A DNA stretch of 42,436 nucleotides from positions 1-42,436 of IMG/VR virus record IMGVR_UViG_3300020733_000027, one strand, 5' to 3'. The DNA comes from a virus. Within the stretch, counting starts at the first letter, position 1, and every line of letters begins with the position of its first letter. A program made the translations under genes and the position numbers. The notes under the pieces were generated by a model. That model worked only from the letters and a program-made list of their open reading frames with translations, was not told where the DNA came from and made no database searches. Of the stretch, positions 3,098 through 35,148 are shown piece by piece.

Positions 3098-3149
3098 TTC
3101 GCTCCCCTTACTGTTTTAATAGTATAACACCATTTGGCTCGTTTGTCAA
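3098..3149 (-). promoter_or_regulatory. Inverted early promoter and leader with no clear gene
   Basis: On the minus strand TTGACA (3144-3149), 17 bp, TATACT (3121-3126), then a leader with AAGGGGAGCGAA (about 3098-3109). This is the same cassette as on the plus strand, including GGTGT before the -10. No ATG follows the leader at usual spacing, so it drives a non-coding transcript or is the remnant of a lost gene. Confidence 0.7.
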
Positions 3150-3212: not shown

Positions 3213-3242
3213 ATAGGCTAGTTAATTAAGAAGGAGCGAACT

Positions 3243-3494
3243 ATGCTATTAGAAGACCAATTTTGCCGTACAGAGTTTGAAGGTAAGGTCTACGACACAC
3301 GTCACGGTGGGCCATTTGATCGTGGCTCTGCGGACTCGTGGTACTCCCGTCCTTGTAGCCCGCATATGTTCTTAGGTGGTAGCTATATGAGTGTAGAGAT
3401 CGGCGCTAGGGACATGACCCCTGAGCAGGTTGACGAGTATCTCGCTGGCTATCGTTATAACGAACAGCATGGCGGTAAGAAAGACTGGGATTAA
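3243..3494 (+). CDS. Conserved phage hypothetical protein (83 aa)
   Basis: Preceded by AAGGAGCGAACT and the early promoter. The middle reads HGGPFDRGSADSWYSRPCSPH, a motif (G-P-[FY]-D-R-G-x-A-D-x-[WY]-Y-x-R...P-H) that I recognise from small proteins in many tailed phages of proteobacteria, followed by an acidic MTPEQVDEYLAGY helix. The family has no known function to my knowledge. Monocistronic. Being early and small, it may act on the host, but that is inference from position only. Confidence 0.8.
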   Translation: MLLEDQFCRTEFEGKVYDTRHGGPFDRGSADSWYSRPCSPHMFLGGSYMSVEIGARDMTPEQVDEYLAGYRYNEQHGGKKDWD

Positions 3495-3532: not shown

Positions 3533-3564
3533 ACTTACTTACATTAATAAACAAGGAGCGAACC

Positions 3565-4272
3565 GTGTTTAAACTATTATCAACAGCTAACCCCAAGATC
3601 CAGAAGGGTACCAAGCTGGGCTATCTTACATTCATACTTCACCTGGCACCTGCGGACTTGAGTGGCAAGGAAGTATGCCCCAAGCGAACAGCTGGGTGTA
3701 CCCAATCATGTCTCAATACAGCGGGTCGTGGCGGTATGTTCCGTAAGGGTGAGACTACCAATGCTATTCAAAAGGCTCGTATACGCAAGACCCAGTACTT
3801 TTTTCAGGATCGTGCGGCGTTCATGCTTGATCTAGCCTATGACATACAAAAGGCCGTCCGTTTTGCTGAAAAGCAAGGATTAATACCCGTGATCCGCTTG
3901 AATGGTACTAGTGACCTGTCGTGGGAAAAGTATGAAGTTCCAGTGTTCTGCACTCGCAACATCTTTGAGCTATTCCCTCGTGTACAGTTCTATGACTATA
4001 CCAAAGTACTAGGGCGCAAAGTAAAAGATATCCCAAACTATCATCTTACCTTTAGCCGTGCTGAATCTAACGAAAGCGATGTACTCTTAGCTCTTGCAGC
4101 CGGTATGAATGTTGCGGCAGTATACGATGAAATCCCCAAAGGTATGCACTCTGCGGATGAAACTGATCTGCGCTTCCTAGACCCTAAGGTAGGCTTGATT
4201 GGCTTGAAGGCCAAAGGCCGTGCTAAGAAGGACTCGTCAGGCTTCGTTATTCGTATCAAGGAGGTTGTATGA
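3565..4272 (+). CDS. GP88-family protein (235 aa)
   Basis: GTG start directly after AAGGAGCGAACC. The sequence carries the hallmarks of the phage 'gene product 88' family: LSTANPKIQKGTKLGY near the start, LHLAPADLSGKEVCP, a Cys cluster C38-x6-C45-x3-C49 followed by NTAGRGG, and the RLNGTSDLSWE segment near residue 113-122. The family occurs in actinophages and many uncultured phages; its biochemical role is not established. The invariant cysteines could bind metal or an Fe-S cluster, which is inference. First gene of a three-gene operon with ATGA overlaps. Confidence 0.85.
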   Translation: MFKLLSTANPKIQKGTKLGYLTFILHLAPADLSGKEVCPKRTAGCTQSCLNTAGRGGMFRKGETTNAIQKARIRKTQYFFQDRAAFMLDLAYDIQKAVRFAEKQGLIPVIRLNGTSDLSWEKYEVPVFCTRNIFELFPRVQFYDYTKVLGRKVKDIPNYHLTFSRAESNESDVLLALAAGMNVAAVYDEIPKGMHSADETDLRFLDPKVGLIGLKAKGRAKKDSSGFVIRIKEVV

Positions 4273-5139: not shown

Positions 5140-5183
5140 ACGTATGTAGTTTAAATTGTTTAACTTAATAAGGAGCGAAACTT

Positions 5184-5387
5184 ATGGGTACACCGTTATA
5201 CATGGAGCTAGGCGAGGCTTGCCAAATCGTCACCCAATATGCAATCGATAACACTGGCGGTGATGTACTGGCCGGCCTTGAAGAGATGCAGATCTGCTAC
5301 GATGATCTAGACAAACCAGAACGTGTGGCCTACCAGATGTTCATGCGTGCAGGCCGTGAGATGTTCGCGCCCAAGGAGTCTGTATGA
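5184..5387 (+). CDS. Hypothetical acidic protein (67 aa)
   Basis: ATG follows AAGGAGCGAAACTT. The product is mostly helical and acidic (GLEEMQICYDDLDKPERVAYQMFMRAGREMF). No family recognised. Its stop overlaps the start of the next gene. Confidence 0.75.
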   Translation: MGTPLYMELGEACQIVTQYAIDNTGGDVLAGLEEMQICYDDLDKPERVAYQMFMRAGREMFAPKESV

Positions 5388-5630: not shown

Positions 5631-5659
5631 TGTATTTTAGTTAGATAAGGAGCGAACTT

Positions 5660-5863
5660 ATGTACGATATCGTTAATAATCCAATTCCACGTTCAGGCCT
5701 CTGGGCTACACCTGGTTCCGAGCAAGAGCTCTACGACATGATTGAAGGCTGTACATCAAATGCCAACGAAAAGCGTCTAGCTTGGATCGGTGCTATGCTG
5801 GCGCTCAACTGGGCCAACAGTGAGGTCGAAGCTATCCTCAAGCGTGAGGTATTTGCACAATGA
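5660..5863 (+). CDS. Hypothetical protein (67 aa)
   Basis: ATG follows AAGGAGCGAACTT. The N-terminus is loop-like (MYDIVNNPIPRSGLWATPGSE), then helices (LYDMIEGCTSNANEKRLAWIGAMLALNWANSEVEAIL). Unknown function. Coupled to the next gene by an ATGA junction. Confidence 0.75.
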   Translation: MYDIVNNPIPRSGLWATPGSEQELYDMIEGCTSNANEKRLAWIGAMLALNWANSEVEAILKREVFAQ

Positions 5864-6109: not shown

Positions 6110-6141
6110 ATTGTTTTAGTAATTAATAAGGAGCGAAACTT

Positions 6142-6465
6142 ATGAAAGACTTTAATTCATCAGCAGACTTGTTAGACGAAGTAACCGAAATGGTACACCG
6201 TCATGTACAAGGCATGCGCAAGGAGCCAGCGAGCCGACTGGGGCTTGACGAGCGTTGTGGTATGTTGTGGGTTGATGAAGACACTATCGTGTCGTACACA
6301 GGCTCACGCTTAGACTACTACGGTGGCTTCGAATACATCAAAGAGGGTGAGGGTCGTACTACGCTAGGCGACTTTACTTTCTACTCCTCAGAGAGCGATC
6401 GTGTTGCAGACGCTATTGAGCAGTTGATGGAGTTCGATGGTGAATGCGAAAGCGAGGATGCATAA
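6142..6465 (+). CDS. Hypothetical acidic protein (107 aa)
   Basis: ATG follows AAGGAGCGAAACTT. An alpha/beta protein with a helical N-terminus (SSADLLDEVTEMVHRHVQGM), a strand-rich centre (CGMLWVDEDTIVSYTGSRLDYYGGFEYIKEG) and an acidic C-terminus (QLMEFDGECESEDA). No motif recognised. Its TAA overlaps the ATG of the next gene. Confidence 0.75.
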   Translation: MKDFNSSADLLDEVTEMVHRHVQGMRKEPASRLGLDERCGMLWVDEDTIVSYTGSRLDYYGGFEYIKEGEGRTTLGDFTFYSSESDRVADAIEQLMEFDGECESEDA

Positions 6466-7063: not shown

Positions 7064-7098
7064 ATATTTTTAACAGTAACAAATTAGGAGCGAAACTA

Positions 7099-7560
7099 AT
7101 GGGTACAAGAAGCTTAACGTTTGTATACGATACATACAAGGCCAAGAACGGTCGCGCAGTACATCGTCCGATCATTAATCTCTATCGCCAGTATGACGGC
7201 TATCCAGAAGGACACGGGCAAGAGCTCGTTGAATTCCTCAAGCAGTTTAAACTGGTTAACGGCCTAGGTGGCGAGTCTAAGACTCGTACAGCTAACGGCA
7301 TGGGCTGTTTGGCGGCACAGCTGGTCAGCAATTTCAAAGGCAACGAAGCAGGGCAGTTTTATCTGTACCCTACTGATACTAAGGACTGTGGACAGGACTA
7401 CGAGTATCACATCTATGCTAATGGCCCGACATTCCGGGTTAAGGTTGTCAACAAAGGTTGCAATATGTTTGGCCTTACTATGAGCGACACTAACGAAGTT
7501 ATCTTTGATGGCATCCTAGCTAAAGCAGAAGAGTTTTGTGCAGACAAGGAACAGCAATGA
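7099..7560 (+). CDS. Conserved phage hypothetical protein (153 aa)
   Basis: ATG follows TTAGGAGCGAAACTA. The N-terminus MGTRSLTFVYD, followed by NLYRQYDGYPEGHGQELVEFL, is a pattern I have seen in small proteins of phages and some bacteria; the shared core is 'TRS-L/I-T-[FV]-V-[YF]...YRQ-[YF]-D-G-Y-P-x-G-H-G'. No function is known to me. The rest is beta-rich with YHIYANGPTFRVKVV near the C-terminus. First gene of a three-gene operon. Confidence 0.8.
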   Translation: MGTRSLTFVYDTYKAKNGRAVHRPIINLYRQYDGYPEGHGQELVEFLKQFKLVNGLGGESKTRTANGMGCLAAQLVSNFKGNEAGQFYLYPTDTKDCGQDYEYHIYANGPTFRVKVVNKGCNMFGLTMSDTNEVIFDGILAKAEEFCADKEQQ

Positions 7561-7793
7561 AATATAAAACTGTTATCTACAGCACAGTCCGAGCAGAGAT
7601 CCATCACGATGAGGAGTTCGCAGGCAGGGGTGATGCCCTAGCCCAAATCATGGAGTGTGAGCTCCTAGACTACGGTAGCATCCTAGGCGGGCAGGATCTA
7701 TACGGTGGCCTGCGTGTTACCAGCGTAGAAGTAGTGACTGACGAAGTTAATGACTATAACCTAGAAGCAGACGAGGAGTATGCAGATGAGTAA
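7557..7793 (+). CDS. Hypothetical acidic protein (78 aa)
   Basis: ATG 7557 overlaps the previous stop, with AAGGA upstream; the longer frame from 7536 would sit inside the neighbour. The start MKYKTVIYSTVRAEIHHDEEFAGRGDALAQIMECEL and the later LRVTSVEVVTDEV form a strand-helix-strand pattern, as in small ferredoxin-like phage proteins. The C-terminus is acidic (EADEEYADE). Confidence 0.7.
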   Translation: MKYKTVIYSTVRAEIHHDEEFAGRGDALAQIMECELLDYGSILGGQDLYGGLRVTSVEVVTDEVNDYNLEADEEYADE

Positions 7794-7971
7794 GATGGCA
7801 GAATTGGATTATGATATTGAGCAGCTCTTCATTGAAGGGCTTACCGAAAAGAATATCGCTAAGACCCTGGACATCCCTGTAGAGATGGTCTACGATTGGA
7901 TGAAGACCAATGGCGTTGAAGAAGAAACAGATTCGTGGAGTCTAATTGAAGACCCACACCTAGTAAACTAG
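7786..7971 (+). CDS. Small helix-turn-helix protein (61 aa)
   Basis: ATG 7786 is preferred (GAGGAG seven bases upstream); it overlaps the previous gene by eight bases. The core ELDYDIEQLFIEGLTEKNIA followed by KTLDIPVEMVYDWMK is a good helix-turn-helix: first helix residues about 10-20, recognition helix about 29-40. Similar 'DIEQLYIEG...IA..L..PV..VYDW' proteins occur in T4-like cyanophages. It may bind DNA or RNA polymerase; with only one HTH it would act as a dimer or adaptor. Function is inferred from fold only. Confidence 0.8.
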   Translation: MSKMAELDYDIEQLFIEGLTEKNIAKTLDIPVEMVYDWMKTNGVEEETDSWSLIEDPHLVN

Positions 7972-8043
7972 TTCGCTCCTAGGCGTAGTAACGTGGGTGG
8001 GCCAACGAGAGAGCCCACACCAAATTCGTTGTAAAAATACAAC
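7958..8043 (+). promoter_or_regulatory. Hairpins and anti-leader segment before promoter 8054
   Basis: After the HTH stop codon the sequence GTTCGCTCCTA (7971-7981) is the exact complement of TAGGAGCGAAC (8101-8111), the ribosome-binding region of the next gene. It lies in a hairpin loop closed by CCTAG and CTAGG. Two more hairpins follow: TGGGC/GCCCA and a perfect GTTGTA-aaaa-TACAAC (8028-8043). There is no uridine tract. Confidence 0.5.
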
Positions 8044-8082: not shown

Positions 8083-8114
8083 GTTTTTATAGTAACTAAT
8101 TAGGAGCGAACCAA

Positions 8115-8474
8115 ATGAAATTACATATCGTTACGCAATACATGGAAAACTACGGTGCCCACGATTGGGACGGTACAGGCGAGTGCCCACAGTATTGGAA
8201 GTTCAAAGGTGGTGAGGACTTCTTCTATCAGTTGGGTTCAGTAGAGCCTAGCGCAGAGCACATCGAAGAGTTGATCTTCGTGCTCCGTGAGCAGATCGAG
8301 TGGGACGACATTGGTAGCCGTCAGTATATCGTAGGCTACGGTATCGTAGAGGACAGCTTCATGACTCCATTTGAGAAGTCACAGTTGGAGTATGATGGGC
8401 ACATCGCTTACCCTGCTGTCATGTTGCAACCCCTAGCAGAAGTAGAGCCCGAGCACTACTATTTTGGAGCCTAA
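8115..8474 (+). CDS. Conserved phage hypothetical protein (119 aa)
   Basis: ATG follows TTAGGAGCGAACCAA. The N-terminus MKLHIVTQYMENYGAHDWDG, followed by CPQYWKFKGG, is shared by a family of phage proteins I recognise but whose function is unknown. The rest is mixed alpha/beta (IEELIFVLREQIEW; RQYIVGYGIVEDSFMTPFE). The Trp- and Tyr-rich conserved block suggests a binding surface. Early expression from its own promoter. Confidence 0.8.
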   Translation: MKLHIVTQYMENYGAHDWDGTGECPQYWKFKGGEDFFYQLGSVEPSAEHIEELIFVLREQIEWDDIGSRQYIVGYGIVEDSFMTPFEKSQLEYDGHIAYPAVMLQPLAEVEPEHYYFGA

Positions 8475-8718: not shown

Positions 8719-8748
8719 AATGTTTTAGTTAGATAGAAGGAGCGAAAA

Positions 8749-9021
8749 ATGGCATCAGCATTGCAGAACTTTGTAGATAAAGAAAACGCTTACATGAAGG
8801 TATTTGGCAAGCCACCTTTGAGCCTAAGCATTGCCGCAGATCGTCAGAAGATTGCTGATCGTATCGATTCAGCACTGAGTCCTGAGCATTTGACCTGTGA
8901 CGGTGAGCTCAGCAGAACTGAAGTCCAGCGTCGTTACAATGCGTTAATCACAGCGGCTCGTCAGTTGCTGAAGGTAGACCCTGCTGTGACCTTTTATGAA
9001 TTCAGTGACGAGATTGCCTAA
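8749..9021 (+). CDS. Hypothetical helical protein (90 aa)
   Basis: ATG follows GAAGGAGCGAAAA. A helical protein (ASALQNFVDKENAYMKVFGK, LSIAADRQKIADRIDSAL, RTEVQRRYNALITAARQLL). No family recognised. First gene of a five-gene operon joined by overlapping starts and stops; its TAA overlaps the next ATG. Confidence 0.75.
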   Translation: MASALQNFVDKENAYMKVFGKPPLSLSIAADRQKIADRIDSALSPEHLTCDGELSRTEVQRRYNALITAARQLLKVDPAVTFYEFSDEIA

Positions 9022-9200
9022 TGCCTAAGTTCAAAGTCACAGCCTATGAAGAAGTCTACTACGAAGGTGTGGTAGAGGCAGAAGATCAAGATGAGGCAGA
9101 GGACATCTTTGCCTTGTCTTTGGGTCCAGTTAGACCCCAAACTAAGAGCTATGAATATCAAACAACACAAGTAATTAACCTAGGGAGCGAATATGCCTAA
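9021..9200 (+). CDS. Small DpnD/PcfM-like protein (59 aa)
   Basis: TAATG junction with the upstream gene. The N-terminal half follows a pattern common in small phage proteins: a strand (KFKVTAYEEVYYEGVVEAED) then an acidic helix (QDEAEDIFALSL), as in DpnD/PcfM-like proteins of unknown role. Too short for standard lists. It ends eight bases into the next gene, and its last codons form that gene's ribosome-binding site (GGGAGCGAAT). Confidence 0.6.
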   Translation: MPKFKVTAYEEVYYEGVVEAEDQDEAEDIFALSLGPVRPQTKSYEYQTTQVINLGSEYA

Positions 9201-9846
9201 TTGGTGCAACAATACTGTAGAGATCAGTCACAAAGATAGATCTAAAATGGAGGCCTTGGTAGAGGCCATCAACAAGGGCGAGTTCTGTAATCATGTTATC
9301 CCAGTGCCCGAAAGCCTACACATTGTAGCAGGGTGCGTCAGTGATGAAGCAGAGCAGAAGAAACTAGAAGAAGACACAGAGCGTAATATCCAAGTGCATG
9401 GCTACGGCAACTGGTATGATTTCTGTGTTGCTCGCTGGGGCACCAAGTGGGATGTTGAAGCTTACAACCCTGTAGAGTTTGACTCTGAGTGGGACAAGAA
9501 CAACAAGATCACCACAGGCTTTGACTCAGCATGGAGCCCACCCTTGGGCGTCTATGAAGCATTGATTGAGCAGGGCTTCGCAGTGCGTGGCTACTACTAT
9601 GAGTCAGGTATGGCCTACTGTGGTATCTACGATGAGTCGGGTGATGACTACTATGAAGTAGGTGGTATGAGCTCTACAGAAGTAGCAGACACACTACCTT
9701 CAGAGTTAGATGAAATGTTCTGTATCTCAGAGGGTATCGCTGAGTGGGAAGAAGACAACGCTGAAGAAGACGAAGTGCAAGAGTGGTATGAAGATGGTGT
9801 AGAGAAGTTAGGCCTAGAGCCACATAAGGTAGGTAATGAAAACTAA
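9193..9846 (+). CDS. DUF1281/YubB-like protein (217 aa)
   Basis: ATG follows TAGGGAGCGAAT. The start MPNWCNNTVEISH, then NWYDFCVARWGTKWDVEAY and a central WSPPLGVYEALIEQG, match the family of plasmid and phage proteins with a ferredoxin-like fold (DUF1281, Api92/YubB-like). These are common in mobile elements and of unknown function. The C-terminal 60 residues are very acidic (EWEEDNAEEDEVQEWYEDG), which may mimic nucleic acid; that is inference. Middle gene of a five-gene operon. Confidence 0.85.
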   Translation: MPNWCNNTVEISHKDRSKMEALVEAINKGEFCNHVIPVPESLHIVAGCVSDEAEQKKLEEDTERNIQVHGYGNWYDFCVARWGTKWDVEAYNPVEFDSEWDKNNKITTGFDSAWSPPLGVYEALIEQGFAVRGYYYESGMAYCGIYDESGDDYYEVGGMSSTEVADTLPSELDEMFCISEGIAEWEEDNAEEDEVQEWYEDGVEKLGLEPHKVGNEN

Positions 9847-10862: not shown

Positions 10863-10939
10863 GGGCCTTTAGCTCAGTTGGTTAGAGCAGAGGACTCATA
10901 ATCCTTTGGTCCGGGGTTCAAGTCCCCGAGGGCCCACCA
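10863..10939 (+). tRNA. tRNA with CAT anticodon, probably tRNA-Ile2 (lysidine type)
   Basis: A full 77-nt cloverleaf with encoded CCA. Acceptor stem GGGCCTT/AGGGCCC (one G-U pair), anticodon stem GAGGA/TCCTT, loop CTCATAA, T-stem CGGGG/CCCCG. The CAT anticodon could mean Met or Ile. Positions C4-G69 and C5-G68, which the enzyme TilS uses to recognise E. coli tRNA-Ile2, are present; E. coli elongator Met has different pairs there. The Ile2 reading, decoding AUA, is therefore favoured by family knowledge. No other tRNA was found in the window. Confidence 0.9.
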
Positions 10940-10940
10940 G

Positions 10941-10972
10941 AATAACCCTACTCGCACTAGGGTTATTTTTTA
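10941..10972 (+). terminator. Rho-independent terminator after the tRNA
   Basis: Perfect 10-bp stem AATAACCCTA / TAGGGTTATT, 7-nt loop, then a run of T. It ends three bases before the next promoter's TTGACA. Confidence 0.9.
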
Positions 10973-11003: not shown

Positions 11004-11028
11004 GTATTTTTAGTTAGAAGGAGCGACA

Positions 11029-11358
11029 ATGTTAACAGTAAAAGACGTTACTAGAGATGATGACAGTACTACTACACACTATACCTGCAACGAGCTAGTA
11101 AAACTAGCAGGCGACAGTATTTGGGACTGTACACTTACAGAAGTTACAGTTACAGACGTTGTGGTACACGAATACGACGACTACAAGAGCGTTAACGTAT
11201 ACTACGACGTAGACGGCGTAGAGGGTACAGAAGTAGAAGACACGTGGCGTATGTACACAGACACGGGCTTTGAAGAAGCCATTAGTGAGCTACTAGGCTA
11301 TGACGTGTCGTTTACAGAACAAGGCATGCAAGACGACGGCGTCGCTAGCATGGAGTAG
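11029..11358 (+). CDS. Hypothetical very acidic protein (109 aa)
   Basis: ATG follows AAGGAGCGACA. The protein is strongly acidic with many Asp, Glu and Thr and alternating strands (TRDDDSTTTHYTCNELV, TLTEVTVTDVVVHEYDD, VNVYYDVDGVEGTEVEDT). The charge and beta content recall DNA-mimic or inhibitor proteins made early by phages, but no specific family is recognised. Monocistronic, with a hairpin after the stop. Confidence 0.75.
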   Translation: MLTVKDVTRDDDSTTTHYTCNELVKLAGDSIWDCTLTEVTVTDVVVHEYDDYKSVNVYYDVDGVEGTEVEDTWRMYTDTGFEEAISELLGYDVSFTEQGMQDDGVASME

Positions 11359-11419: not shown

Positions 11420-11453
11420 AGTGTTTTAACAGCGAAACTTAAGGAGCGAACTT

Positions 11454-11774
11454 ATGGTAACAGCAGAACAGATCCAAGCAGGTTTGATCATTGCGCAACA
11501 GGCCGCAGAAGCCAAGTATCAACAGGTAGGCGAGCGTGACGCATGTGGCTTTGGTTGGACAGAAGTCTATGTTAGTCGCACCAACTCAAAAGAAGCCAAA
11601 GAGTTGATCCGTGCAGGTTTCCGCAAGGACTACAAGCCCAAGTGCTTGACCTACTGGGATCCAGCCAAACTGCCTACACAGAGCATTAGTGTAAAAGAAG
11701 CAGGCGCAGATGCATTTGCCACTTATCTAACAGCCTTAGGTTTCAAAGCCTACGGTTGTTCAAGAATGGACTAA
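11454..11774 (+). CDS. Conserved phage hypothetical protein (106 aa)
   Basis: ATG follows AAGGAGCGAACTT. The pattern GERDACGFGWTEVYVSRTNS, then KELIRAGFRKDYKPKCLTYW, DPAKLPTQSISVKEAGADAF and the end GCSRMD fits a family I recognise from many tailed phages and some bacteria; its role is not known. The conserved Cys-Gly-x-[GA]-Trp and the final SR-x-D suggest a compact fold with a shared binding site. Monocistronic. Confidence 0.8.
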   Translation: MVTAEQIQAGLIIAQQAAEAKYQQVGERDACGFGWTEVYVSRTNSKEAKELIRAGFRKDYKPKCLTYWDPAKLPTQSISVKEAGADAFATYLTALGFKAYGCSRMD

Positions 11775-11780
11775 CGCTAG

Positions 11781-11809
11781 TTGACGCAGGGGGCAACCCC
11801 TGCTATACT
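11781..11809 (+). promoter_or_regulatory. Early promoter for the AAA ATPase
   Basis: TTGACG (11781-11786), 17-bp spacer containing GGGGGCAACCCC (a small inverted repeat), TATACT (11804-11809). The palindromic spacer is unlike the others and may bind a regulator. Confidence 0.85.
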
Positions 11810-11840
11810 ACTAACACTATTAATTAAATCAGGAGCGACG

Positions 11841-12713
11841 ATGACACGAGTAGTTACCTCAGCAATGCTGTTAGCGGCACAGGCAGACGCCAAAAGCCTA
11901 GCACAAGAAGCGCCCGTCAAAGTACTTACAGAGTCCGACGAAGAGATCATGAAGCGTCTAGCGGATCGCTTTGAGATCCTAGAAGACATGACACGTGCTG
12001 TCAAGAAGGGCGATGTACGCTCTATGATCGTAACAGGGCCCCCAGGTGTGGGCAAATCGTTTGGTGTAGAGAAGGTCTTGAGCAAGCATGATGTTATGGC
12101 CAATATCGCCCAGGACGGCAAGTTAAAGAAGTATGAAGTGGTCAAGGGCGCGATGTCAGCACTAGGCTTGTACTCTAAGCTCTACGAGTTCTCAGACAAG
12201 AAGTCAATACTAGTGTTTGATGACTGTGACTCAGTACTACTTGATGACCTGAGCTTGAACATCCTAAAGGCTGCTCTGGACTCGGGCAAGAAGCGTATGA
12301 TCCATTGGAACACGGACTCTAGACTGCTCAAAGATCAGGGTGTGCCCAACTCATTTGAGTTCAAAGGTGGCGCTATCTTTATTACCAACATCAAGTTCGA
12401 TCACGTAAGGTCTAAGAAGCTCAAAGATCACTTGGAAGCACTAGAGTCACGCTGCCACTACTTGGATCTAACTATTGACACAGAGCGTGAGAAGCTGCTT
12501 CGTATACGTCAGGTAGTACGCGATGCGGGCATGCTGGACTCATATGACTTGTCAGAAGAAGCCAAGGTAGAAGTAGTAGACTTTATTAATGCCAACGCTG
12601 GTCGCATGCGTGAGCTGAGCTTACGTATGGTACTCAAGGTAGCAGACATACGTGCTAGCATGCCCACTAAGTGGCAGGCTGTAGCAGAAGTAACCTGCAT
12701 GCGCAACGCATAG
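11841..12713 (+). CDS. AAA-type ATPase (290 aa)
   Basis: ATG 11841 follows CAGGAGCGACG; the longer frame from 11781 would contain the promoter. Walker A GPPGVGKS at residues 66-73 and Walker B ILVFDDCD near 123-130 are clear, with an HWNTDSRLL (sensor-1-like) region after them and a C-terminal helical lid. The family is common in phages of uncertain function; proposed uses include helicase loading and remodelling of complexes. It ends the early plus-strand region; its mRNA continues into the two-loop RNA and terminator at 12748-12838. Confidence 0.85.
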   Translation: MTRVVTSAMLLAAQADAKSLAQEAPVKVLTESDEEIMKRLADRFEILEDMTRAVKKGDVRSMIVTGPPGVGKSFGVEKVLSKHDVMANIAQDGKLKKYEVVKGAMSALGLYSKLYEFSDKKSILVFDDCDSVLLDDLSLNILKAALDSGKKRMIHWNTDSRLLKDQGVPNSFEFKGGAIFITNIKFDHVRSKKLKDHLEALESRCHYLDLTIDTEREKLLRIRQVVRDAGMLDSYDLSEEAKVEVVDFINANAGRMRELSLRMVLKVADIRASMPTKWQAVAEVTCMRNA

Positions 12714-12747
12714 CAGTGCAGTAAGCAGCCCTAGAGCTGTAGTAGTA

Positions 12748-12838
12748 CAGTGGCCCACGCGAATCGCTCCCGCTAGGCCTCTGAGTAGTTCGGACTCGAC
12801 CATACAGTGATTCGCTCCCACTAGGTCGAGTCTTTTTT
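12748..12838 (+). ncRNA. Two-stem-loop RNA with anti-leader loops
   Basis: Stem-loop 1 (12748-12783): outer CAG-T-GGCC / GGCC-T-CTG, inner GCG/CGC, 9-nt loop AATCGCTCC. Stem-loop 2 (12793-12832): outer GACTCGACC/GGTCGAGTC, inner AGTG/CACT, 9-nt loop ATTCGCTCC, then six T. Both loops are complementary to the GGAGCGA(A) core shared by the leaders of about thirteen genes in this window. No promoter of its own is seen, so it is likely the 3' end of the ATPase transcript. On the other strand the same sites read GGGAGCGAAT and GGGAGCGATT. Confidence 0.6.
12793..12838 (+). terminator. Rho-independent terminator of the early plus-strand region
   Basis: A perfect 9-bp stem GACTCGACC/GGTCGAGTC and a TTTTTT tract. 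It closes the last early operon. Confidence 0.85.
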
Positions 12839-12960: not shown

Positions 12961-13047
12961 GTGCAAAATCACCAGGCTGAATCTGTAAGTACTTGTTTAT
13001 AATTTTTTACGCGACAGGTTTTTTAGGCTGCAGGACCCATTTGGCCC

Positions 13048-14526: not shown

Positions 14527-14590
14527 AAACTCTAAGTACTTCCCCAAAATTTTTTGCGCACCAATTTTTTAGGCCTGTAGACCCGGTTCA

Positions 14591-15106: not shown

Positions 15107-15126
15107 CACTTATACTAGGAGCGACT

Positions 15127-15351
15127 ATGGCACATAGAGTAAGAACACACCGCTGGCATCGTGGCCAGCTTAGAATACACGATGAACTATTTGAAACGTT
15201 TGAGCTAGCTGATCTCTTTGCACGCACACGTTTTGGCGCAGAATCAGTTAAGATCTACAACGATGACAATTTCGTAGTTAAGAATATTGTTTCGGGACAG
15301 GTCAGCTGGGACTACGCTTCGGGCTACGACTATCCACAGAGTTATAGTTAA
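15127..15351 (+). CDS. Hypothetical protein (74 aa)
   Basis: ATG 15127 follows CTAGGAGCGACT. The product is a basic, then mixed protein (AHRVRTHRWHRGQLRIHDELFETFELADLF, VKIYNDDNFVVKNIVSGQVSW). The layout fits small 'x-FELADLFAR' proteins of phages that share a strand-helix-strand fold, but no specific match. It overlaps the 3' end of the convergent gene 15302-15715 by 50 bp. Confidence 0.7.
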   Translation: MAHRVRTHRWHRGQLRIHDELFETFELADLFARTRFGAESVKIYNDDNFVVKNIVSGQVSWDYASGYDYPQSYS

Positions 15352-29083: not shown

Positions 29084-29112
29084 ATTATACGCTTTTTATA
29101 TGTTAATTTCAA
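29084..29112 (-). promoter_or_regulatory. Promoter of the gp41 helicase, leaderless
   Basis: Minus strand TTGAAA (29107-29112), 17-bp spacer, TATAAT (29084-29089), then ATAGACT and ATG 29076. Confidence 0.75.
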
Positions 29113-30043
29113 TATGTTTGGCGGTTGGGCCAGTCCACTTAATCTTTTCTTTTGTGTGATACAGAACTGCACCTATGCTCGAGCTAGGATCTCCGGGATT
29201 TGGCAAACTCCAGCGATGCTCAAAAATAGAAGTAACTATTCGTTTATTAGCTTCACTATTCATAGCACAACCGCCCATATAGACTAGGTTATTTGACCCT
29301 GTTAATCTCTTAGCAGTTTGCATAATCACATTTACTTGTTCCTCAAACACTATCTGTACTGCGGCTGCTAAATCGCATTGTTCTTGTAGTGTTGTTAATT
29401 GATCTAAGTCCCAAAATTCTACTCCGCGATGAAAATTAGTGTTTAGATCTAATATTTCGCCTGCGTTAAAATAACTTCTAATGTAGGATAAAAATCTAGT
29501 ACCGTTACCTTGTGCAGCCATCTTTTGTAGCAGGTGCTCATCTTTGATTGGTGTTAGACCGACAAATTGTGTAAATGCCGAATAGAATAATCCTAAACTA
29601 TGTGGATAACCTCGACTCCATACTTTCTTTAATTTTCCAGATTTTCCATGCCAAATAGTAGCACATTCAAATTCACCAATAGCATCTAAAACTACAACAG
29701 CACATTCGTCAAACGGACTAGTATAGTAACCGGCGGCAGCATGACTAGCATGATGCGGAGTGTATGTGACTGGTGCATATTTAAACTGTGCTAGGTGGCG
29801 TTTTGGCAGTACATCCATGTTAAACACAGTGCGATATTGTCCTGCGTACAGTTGTCTTGCTTTCTTAATCCAAGGACGTTCGTACCAAAAAATACGATCA
29901 GGACTACCAAGTCCTAGTGCCTTGACAGTGGTATCGCTGGACAGTTCGTCACCTGCGCCGACATAGTTATCGATAAATTGGCCATCCTTAAAGACGGCAA
30001 GACTATGCCCGTGATTAAGTGCGTTGACTCCCCAATATATCAT
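29096..30043 (-). CDS. Carbamoyltransferase-family protein, Kae1-like domain only (315 aa)
   Basis: Features of the NodU/CmcH/TobZ family: NALNHGHSLAVFKDG (N-terminal phosphate loop), THHASHAAAGYY-type metal site (H97, H98, H101), DAIGE (about 120-124) and YMGGCAMNSEANK. The family makes a carbamoyl-adenylate and transfers it. Full-length members are near 550-600 residues with a C-terminal transferase domain; that part is missing here. A known gene in T4-like cyanophages. Located between gp61/37-aa and gp41, coupled by an ATGA junction. A DNA or metabolite modification role is possible but unproven. Confidence 0.75.
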   Translation of the reverse strand: MIYWGVNALNHGHSLAVFKDGQFIDNYVGAGDELSSDTTVKALGLGSPDRIFWYERPWIKKARQLYAGQYRTVFNMDVLPKRHLAQFKYAPVTYTPHHASHAAAGYYTSPFDECAVVVLDAIGEFECATIWHGKSGKLKKVWSRGYPHSLGLFYSAFTQFVGLTPIKDEHLLQKMAAQGNGTRFLSYIRSYFNAGEILDLNTNFHRGVEFWDLDQLTTLQEQCDLAAAVQIVFEEQVNVIMQTAKRLTGSNNLVYMGGCAMNSEANKRIVTSIFEHRWSLPNPGDPSSSIGAVLYHTKEKIKWTGPTAKHIEINI

Positions 30044-34050: not shown

Positions 34051-34529
34051 TATTTTAATTTTTTAGCAATCGTAGCCTCATCCATACCGTGCTGACGAGC
34101 AAGGTCCTTTACTTCTTTGTCTGTCATCAGCTGACTCATTAAATCGATCTCGTCTTCTTTTTTATCTGGATAAAACTCTGCTAGTAACTTTACTTTTTTA
34201 GTGTTTCCACCTGTTTTTTTCTTATTGCCAATCCATTGATGGAAAAACTTTTTATTACCATCATAGTTGCACATACATAACAAATACCACATGAGCTTAG
34301 GATGTTTTTGTAAAACAGCCCAATGCTTATTAAAATATTCATTGACTGCTAACACGAAGTGCTCCTGTATTTCACGCTTTTCGCCTTGGGCATTACTGAT
34401 ATATCTATTGAGAATAAAGAATTCATTCTTAAGTGCTTTTTGTTGATCAGAGTCCATGGCATCCCACAGTTCTCGCATGTTTTGATCAACAGCTAGAATC
34501 TTTTCTTTTAGTTCAATCTTTTCACTCAT
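34050..34529 (-). CDS. Possible clamp-loader small subunit, T4 gp62-like (159 aa)
   Basis: The layout 'FFILNRYISN ... NEYF ... KFFHQWIGNKKKTG ... LLAEFYPDKKEDEIDLMSQLM' follows the pattern of cyanophage gp62 (F-x-[VL]-N-R-x-[LI]-S ... KRF-x-K-W-x-K ... YYG-x-x-x-x-K ... LT). Family members are short (~120-190 residues), which fits. gp62 joins gp44 to open and load the sliding clamp; gp44 is not in this window. The match is moderate, so I give it as possible. Confidence 0.5.
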   Translation of the reverse strand: MSEKIELKEKILAVDQNMRELWDAMDSDQQKALKNEFFILNRYISNAQGEKREIQEHFVLAVNEYFNKHWAVLQKHPKLMWYLLCMCNYDGNKKFFHQWIGNKKKTGGNTKKVKLLAEFYPDKKEDEIDLMSQLMTDKEVKDLARQHGMDEATIAKKLK

Positions 34530-35148
34530 CTTTAGGCCTTAGTATAGCATCAAATGCCATCACAGTCCTATAGCCTGTGCCCTTCCATGGATAAACAGTA
34601 TGTCCAACATAGCTCGGAAACATCACCATAGCACCAACTTGCGGAGTTAGTTTCATTGTATCATTCATGATAAATTTAGTGATGTCTTTTGTTTGCGGTA
34701 ATCTAAATAAAACTTGCCCGTCTGACTTAGGGGAGTCTTCTTCAATTTCCGGAGCATTAATATAAATGTTTCCGCTAAGGTTGCCGCCTGGGTGACTATG
34801 CATTTCTTGATAATCTCCTGGCCCTTGACGGATAGTCCAAATACTGGTTACCACAGGTTTGCACATTTTTAGTTCTTCTGCACCACTTTGTACAGTAACT
34901 AGATCCATATATCCTTGGCAGGATTCTTCTAAGAACTGTACTAACCAAGAAACATCTAAGCCTAAGTCATTTGGGTATACTTGTATCTGTTGTCCCCCGC
35001 GGATACTGATAGTAGGATTGCCTTCGTCATTTAATTCTGGATGAGCGTGCAGGTTTTCAGCTAGGCTGAATATTTGACTAAATGTCTGTGGCGGCACATC
35101 ATCTACAGCCATTACCACTGGTTGAAAATACGCAACTTTTAATGCCAT
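34522..35148 (-). CDS. 2OG-Fe(II) oxygenase-like protein (208 aa)
   Basis: Core YQEMHSHPGGNLSGNIYIN (H117, H119) with distal H183 (YVGHTVYPW) and R194 (GYRTVMAFD) fits the HxH-type phage oxygenase family seen in T4-like marine phages. The N-terminus is a strand-rich leader. Overlaps the gp62-like gene by eight bases; a shared operon. The substrate is unknown. Confidence 0.8.
   Translation of the reverse strand: MALKVAYFQPVVMAVDDVPPQTFSQIFSLAENLHAHPELNDEGNPTISIRGGQQIQVYPNDLGLDVSWLVQFLEESCQGYMDLVTVQSGAEELKMCKPVVTSIWTIRQGPGDYQEMHSHPGGNLSGNIYINAPEIEEDSPKSDGQVLFRLPQTKDITKFIMNDTMKLTPQVGAMVMFPSYVGHTVYPWKGTGYRTVMAFDAILRPKDE

Follow-up and report, generated by a model that had tools for sequence, protein, structure and literature searches.

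The window, by which we mean the whole stretch of DNA analysed, is a 42.4-kb viral record from IMG/VR. Its minus strand encodes a UvsX-like recombinase, a DnaB-like helicase, a primase and a helicase, together with virion genes, and small genes are clustered on its plus strand, with near-perfect sigma70-like promoters in front of them. The final early gene in this cluster encodes an AAA-ATPase-like protein, and two consecutive stem-loops lie in its 3'UTR. As described in the initial annotation, each consists of an outer stem, an inner stem of 3-4 bp and a 9-nt loop, and the second is followed by a T-run:

11781-11809, plus strand: sigma70-like promoter of the hairpin transcript (TTGACG-17-TATACT)
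11841-12713, plus strand: early gene for an AAA-ATPase-like protein (phrog_1250), with the hairpins in its 3'UTR; synteny in relatives
12748-12785, plus strand: hairpin 1, loop AATCGCTCC at 12762-12770; a counterpart upstream hairpin is kept in relatives
12792-12838, plus strand: hairpin 2, an intrinsic terminator, loop ATTCGCTCC at 12810-12818, T-run at 12833-12838

Structure and setting of the hairpins

The outer stem of hairpin 1 is formed by GGCC (12752-12755 with 12776-12779) plus CAG/CTG, and its inner stem by GCG/CGC; this hairpin is no terminator. In hairpin 2, an outer stem of 10 bp (12792-12801 with 12824-12833) encloses the inner stem AGTG/CACT. Both loops are complementary to GGAGCGA(A/T), and the complementarity ends at the loop edge. 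The folding energy of the 125-nt stretch 12714-12838 was only modestly better than that of shuffled sequences (z = -1.59), so that folding energy alone is no proof of the hairpins, and the proof is supplied by the comparative evidence below. Since isolated single hairpins sometimes fold with alternative pairing inside the loop, we did not rely on single-sequence energy folding. The location in a 3'UTR and the intrinsic terminator at the end are as expected of a 3'UTR-derived sRNA.

A blastn comparison of the region with phage records found no nucleotide relative, and an Rfam search of the window matched a tRNA alone, with a chance match to SNORA70 (E = 4.3) and no match to the c4 model (RF01695). 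A resemblance of the loop to a T-loop of tRNA was weighed and dropped. A third TTCGCTCC occurs on the early strand within 7950-8000 (+), directly 3' of the operon 7099-7971; this loop copy (7972-7979) was left out of the count, and an ambiguous fold may hide the loop.

Several other features of the window were recorded. The phrog_1250 protein is often called 'thioredoxin' in phage records, and its sole Pfam matches are sub-threshold AAA domains. A tRNA-Met (CAT) gene lies within the early cluster (10863-10939, +), with a terminator-like AATAACCCT...AGGGTTATT hairpin after it (10941-10963). A 54-nt intergenic direct repeat (12980-13033 and 14527-14580, 70% identical) is located upstream of two plus-strand genes, and boxes resembling T4 late promoters (TATAAATA/AAGTACTT) are found near several gene starts. 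Genes for a Nol-like carbamoyltransferase and a 2OG-Fe(II) oxygenase (29096-30043 and 34522-35148, both on the minus strand) may have a role in DNA or surface modification. Host assignment via genome contigs gave matches to metagenome bins of mixed phyla, from which no host was obtained.

A leader shared by early genes

We counted GGAGCGA in the window and found 19 matches, compared with 2.37 +/- 1.43 expected, a number reached in none of 100 shuffled sequences. Thirteen plus-strand copies are in ribosome-binding position, in agreement with the 'about thirteen genes' whose leaders the loops had been said to complement:

3233-3239, plus strand: leader GGAGCGA of gene 3243-3494
3555-3561, plus strand: leader of gene 3565-4272 (GP88 family)
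5172-5178, plus strand: leader of gene 5184-5387
5649-5655, plus strand: leader of gene 5660-5863
6130-6136, plus strand: leader of gene 6142-6465
7087-7093, plus strand: leader of gene 7099-7560
8103-8109, plus strand: leader of gene 8115-8474
8739-8745, plus strand: leader of gene 8749-9021
9184-9190, plus strand: leader GGAGCGAAT of gene 9193-9846, with a 9-nt match to loop 2
11020-11026, plus strand: leader of gene 11029-11358
11443-11449, plus strand: leader of gene 11454-11774
11832-11838, plus strand: leader GGAGCGA of the hairpin-bearing gene itself (11841-12713)
15118-15124, plus strand: possible target leader, ATG at 15127, outside the early cluster

Genes with this leader are mostly the first behind a sigma70-like promoter (none was seen just upstream of the leader at 9184-9190), and non-first genes within an early transcript usually have a different SD. 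In the window's clade, GGAGCGA precedes 430 of 741 promoter-linked starts (at most 75 nt from a promoter-like site) versus 52 of 2250 other starts. The motif is absent from the starts of all 28 minus-strand (replication/virion) genes of the window. The switch that the initial annotation had called 'phage-wide' is therefore better read as 'early-gene-wide': the site is missing from the late and replication genes. On the minus strand, a sigma70-like promoter at 3099-3147 is followed by GGAGCGA, with no clear start codon shortly after it. The plus strand has only a handful of copies of the reverse complement, TCGCTCC, and two of these are the hairpin loops.

The leader goes beyond an SD: its GGAG, but not its conserved CGA, pairs with the 16S tail. 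The predicted pairing energies between loops and leaders in the window (-12.2 to -14.1 kcal/mol) were stronger by about 5 kcal/mol than those between the 16S tail and the leaders (-6.5 to -8.5 kcal/mol), and the loops gave a mean of -3.7 kcal/mol at late-gene starts. The YUNR U-turn motif, typical of antisense recognition loops (PMC4485353), was present in 44 of 52 paired loop segments, compared with 35% of random 9-mers; in the window it occurs as UUCG in loop 2, and loop 1 (AAUCGCUCC) is without UUCG.

Conservation and loop-leader covariation

Hundreds of relatives of the large T4-like phage represented by the window have such hairpins after the same early gene. Among the metagenomic loci fetched by protein homology alone (n = 80), every one of those listed had between one and four of these loops downstream of the AAA-ATPase gene. 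A stem of at least 6 bp was found in 163 of 173 distinct loop contexts, compared with a mean of 46.8 and a maximum of 63 when the 3' arms were swapped between hairpins, and the loop-closing pair was G-C in 172 of the 173. In an RNAalifold analysis of 18 aligned hairpins, 11 loop-region columns were invariant and nine of the ten predicted pairs showed double changes that kept the pairing; the stems vary in compensating fashion around a fixed loop. The initial annotation had turned on whether homologous phages possess the loops and compensatory changes, and both were found in relatives.

A sister clade (L242, L254, L255, L274, L279, L280 and others) also has GGAGCGA leaders, with a related hairpin further downstream. 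Some homologous loci have no such hairpin within 460 nt. The GGAGCGA leader family is absent at the locus of Pseudomonas phage Paride (PA5oct group; protein 45-49% identical), no anti-leader hairpin follows the homologous gene in Paride or in a Karamvirus, and a single-protein search with the Paride protein returned zero loci. Fetching loci by loop sequence biases the CGA count and leaves the non-CGA tests unaffected.

More distant homologues have different leaders, and in these the downstream hairpin bears a matching different loop. The GGAGCGA leader and TCGCTCC loop of the window's clade correspond elsewhere to leader GGAGCCAAC with loop GTTGGCTCC (whose hairpin resembles a terminator), GGAGCTAG with CTAGCTCC, GGAGCTAA with TTAGCTCC, GGGCTAGAAA with TTTCTAGCCC, GGGCTAGTAA with TTACTAGCCC, and GGAGTGAGA with TCTCACTC(C). 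Close relatives also differ in this way, with co-switches inside supported tree clades (L248 vs L252/L315; L278 vs L316) between GGAGCCAAC/GTTGGCTCC (L248, L278), GGGCTAGAAA/TTTCTAGCCC (L252, L315) and GGGCTAGTAA/TTACTAGCCC (L316). One-base mismatched loci exist as well, such as an own leader GGAGCGT/CGC with a TCGCTCC loop, or GGAGCCT with a TAGCTCC loop. After the gene in a TGA-leader clade (L231, L239, L251), a CT-rich large-loop hairpin TCACTCTCACTC matches leader GGAGTGAGAA, as does a second hairpin with TTCTCACT in L232 and L251.

We compared the longest complement between each locus's own leader and own loop with that of permuted pairs in 170 non-redundant loci, and obtained a mean of 6.38 nt versus 5.42 nt (z = 12.2, 0/2000 permutations); with the CGA class left out, the match persisted (z = 8.4, 0/2000). 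Upstream segments and the leader's reverse complement (identity control) gave null results as controls in this test, and the reversed leader gave a weak signal (z = 2.5). All own matches of at least 8 nt begin at positions -14 to -9, and the leader and loop triplets were concordant in 102 of 136 cases, compared with a permuted mean of 52.7 and a maximum of 69. Among phylogenetically independent pairs, the own combination was better in 25 and the swapped one in 15 (sign test, P = 0.15; one-sided Wilcoxon test on sizes, P = 0.015), a weaker result, which indicates that shared ancestry inflates the significance of the permutation test in part. With this qualification, the sequences point to strong covariation of loop and leader. 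Such intermolecular covariation makes base pairing between them very well supported, and the earlier proposal that the loops pair with many phage mRNAs at the Shine-Dalgarno gains from it: relatives keep the loops, their stems compensate, and from clade to clade the loop changes with the leader.

The number of matching leaders differs among clades. Most large records of the window's clade contain 8-15 strict leaders (AGGAGCGA-N1-9-ATG), mostly clustered, and in most of them two hairpins lie close together on the strand of the leaders, where the cluster ends or nearby, with the leaders mostly preceding them. Records of the CCA clade contain 1-5 matching leaders each and those of the CTA clade about one each, so that a regulon is clear in the window's clade only and partly in the CCA clade. 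These counts suggest that the ancestral state may have been self-regulation of a single gene, from which the regulon was derived.

A putative antisense RNA against early translation

We propose that the 3'UTR of the AAA-ATPase-like phrog_1250 gene encodes a tandem-hairpin antisense RNA with an intrinsic terminator at its end. Each 9-nt loop would present the complement of the leader GGAGCGAA, which serves most early transcripts, the hairpin-bearing one among them, as the ribosome-binding site of their first gene. The RNA would build up during early transcription, either with a free 3' end or still within the mRNA, and its loops would pair with the leaders over 7-9 bp and cover the Shine-Dalgarno. 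Since this pairing would hide the SD, initiation would be blocked, as it is by icaR (PMC3868564) and RNAIII (PMC2837412), and early translation would go down, as negative feedback and as an early-to-late switch. We assign a probability of about 0.72 to this reading as a whole, a 3'UTR antisense RNA that shuts down early translation. The accumulation of the RNA, its action in trans, repression rather than activation and the timing are what we infer, and the likeliest mode would be repression of the early regulon in trans.

The pairing could instead occur in cis, the 3'UTR loops binding the SD of their own mRNA (5'-3' circularisation) and controlling the translation or stability of the AAA gene alone, with the other shared leaders as a by-product. 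Such pairing has a precedent in icaR (PMC3868564), and the partner with the best support in the CCA, CTA, TGA and GGGCTAG clades is the own leader of the gene that bears the hairpins. In the window's clade, however, a single pair of hairpins is matched by 8-15 leaders transcribed from separate promoters, and where the own leader has drifted to GGAGCGT/CGC the loop still complements the other leaders; we consider cis pairing alone rather unlikely. An RNA that acts as an activator or stabiliser of early mRNAs, or one that the leaders titrate as a sponge, appears less probable still: complementarity alone is established and leaves the direction of the effect free, but pairing at -14 to -9 covers the SD itself, which normally blocks initiation.

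Extreme loop conservation and tandem hairpins would also suit sites for a phage or host protein, the loop resembling the leader because the protein or the ribosome sees both. Loop and leader are complementary, not identical (the identity control was null), and they change jointly between clades, which makes this explanation very improbable. The alternative raised in the initial annotation, a pair of inverted leader copies, combined here with ordinary terminators and no function, draws on the fact that hairpin 2 is a good intrinsic terminator and that the early leaders are themselves repeated; it is scarcely credible, given that the complementarity is confined to the loop, which is kept while the flanks change freely and the stems have diverged, that hairpin 1 is no terminator, that all homology-fetched clade loci among those listed keep the loop, and that other clades show matched replacement of loop and leader.

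By analogy, the antisense RNA, absent from Rfam, would act like c4 RNA, S. aureus RNAIII or the icaR 3'UTR. In the c4 antisense RNA of phages P1/P7 (RF01695), loop segments complementary to the ribosome-binding region block translation (PMC12197685), and here too the loops of a phage RNA are complementary to the RBS of putatively regulated mRNAs; c4, however, serves antirepressor control in temperate phages, whereas the present hairpins lie in a 3'UTR of T4-like phages and face a leader shared by many early genes. A 3'UTR motif of S. aureus icaR likewise pairs with the SD of its own mRNA and blocks initiation (PMC3868564). That case concerns a single bacterial gene, unlike the tandem, terminator-ended hairpins described here, with their likely trans regulon and, in different clades, several loop/leader sequences that match each other. 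S. aureus RNAIII and E. coli CyaR bind the SDs of several mRNAs through anti-SD hairpin loops (PMC2837412). The present loops are likewise complementary to several mRNAs, a complementarity conserved by covariation, and would repress their translation in trans, but those bacterial RNAs are based on the SD core, whereas here the leader extends beyond it (CGA, CCA, CTA and others) and coevolves with the loop.

In its putative role the RNA resembles T4 RegA, a protein that acts at the initiation regions of about 30 mRNAs to stop their translation (PMC3014915), with the difference that it is an RNA. The RegA profile PF01818 matched a Karamvirus positive control and nothing in the window or in 13 relatives, many of whose records are fragments in which remote homologues could be missed. 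By this analogy, the RNA may fill the role of RegA in these phages. We found no such regulon in the published literature, with subscription journals only partly covered. A more tentative extension, which we regard as possible but doubtful, is that in a widespread group of T4-like phages an RNA switch replaces RegA for the whole early regulon, with a loop/leader 'code' in each lineage that spares the early genes of co-infecting phages. If confirmed, these results would represent antisense control of early translation across a whole regulon of lytic T4-like phages and hint at how such phages may manage without RegA. The natural intermolecular covariation over many lineages would then provide a ready set of orthogonal RNA regulators, and the early-to-late translational switch would be directly testable by two-base changes.
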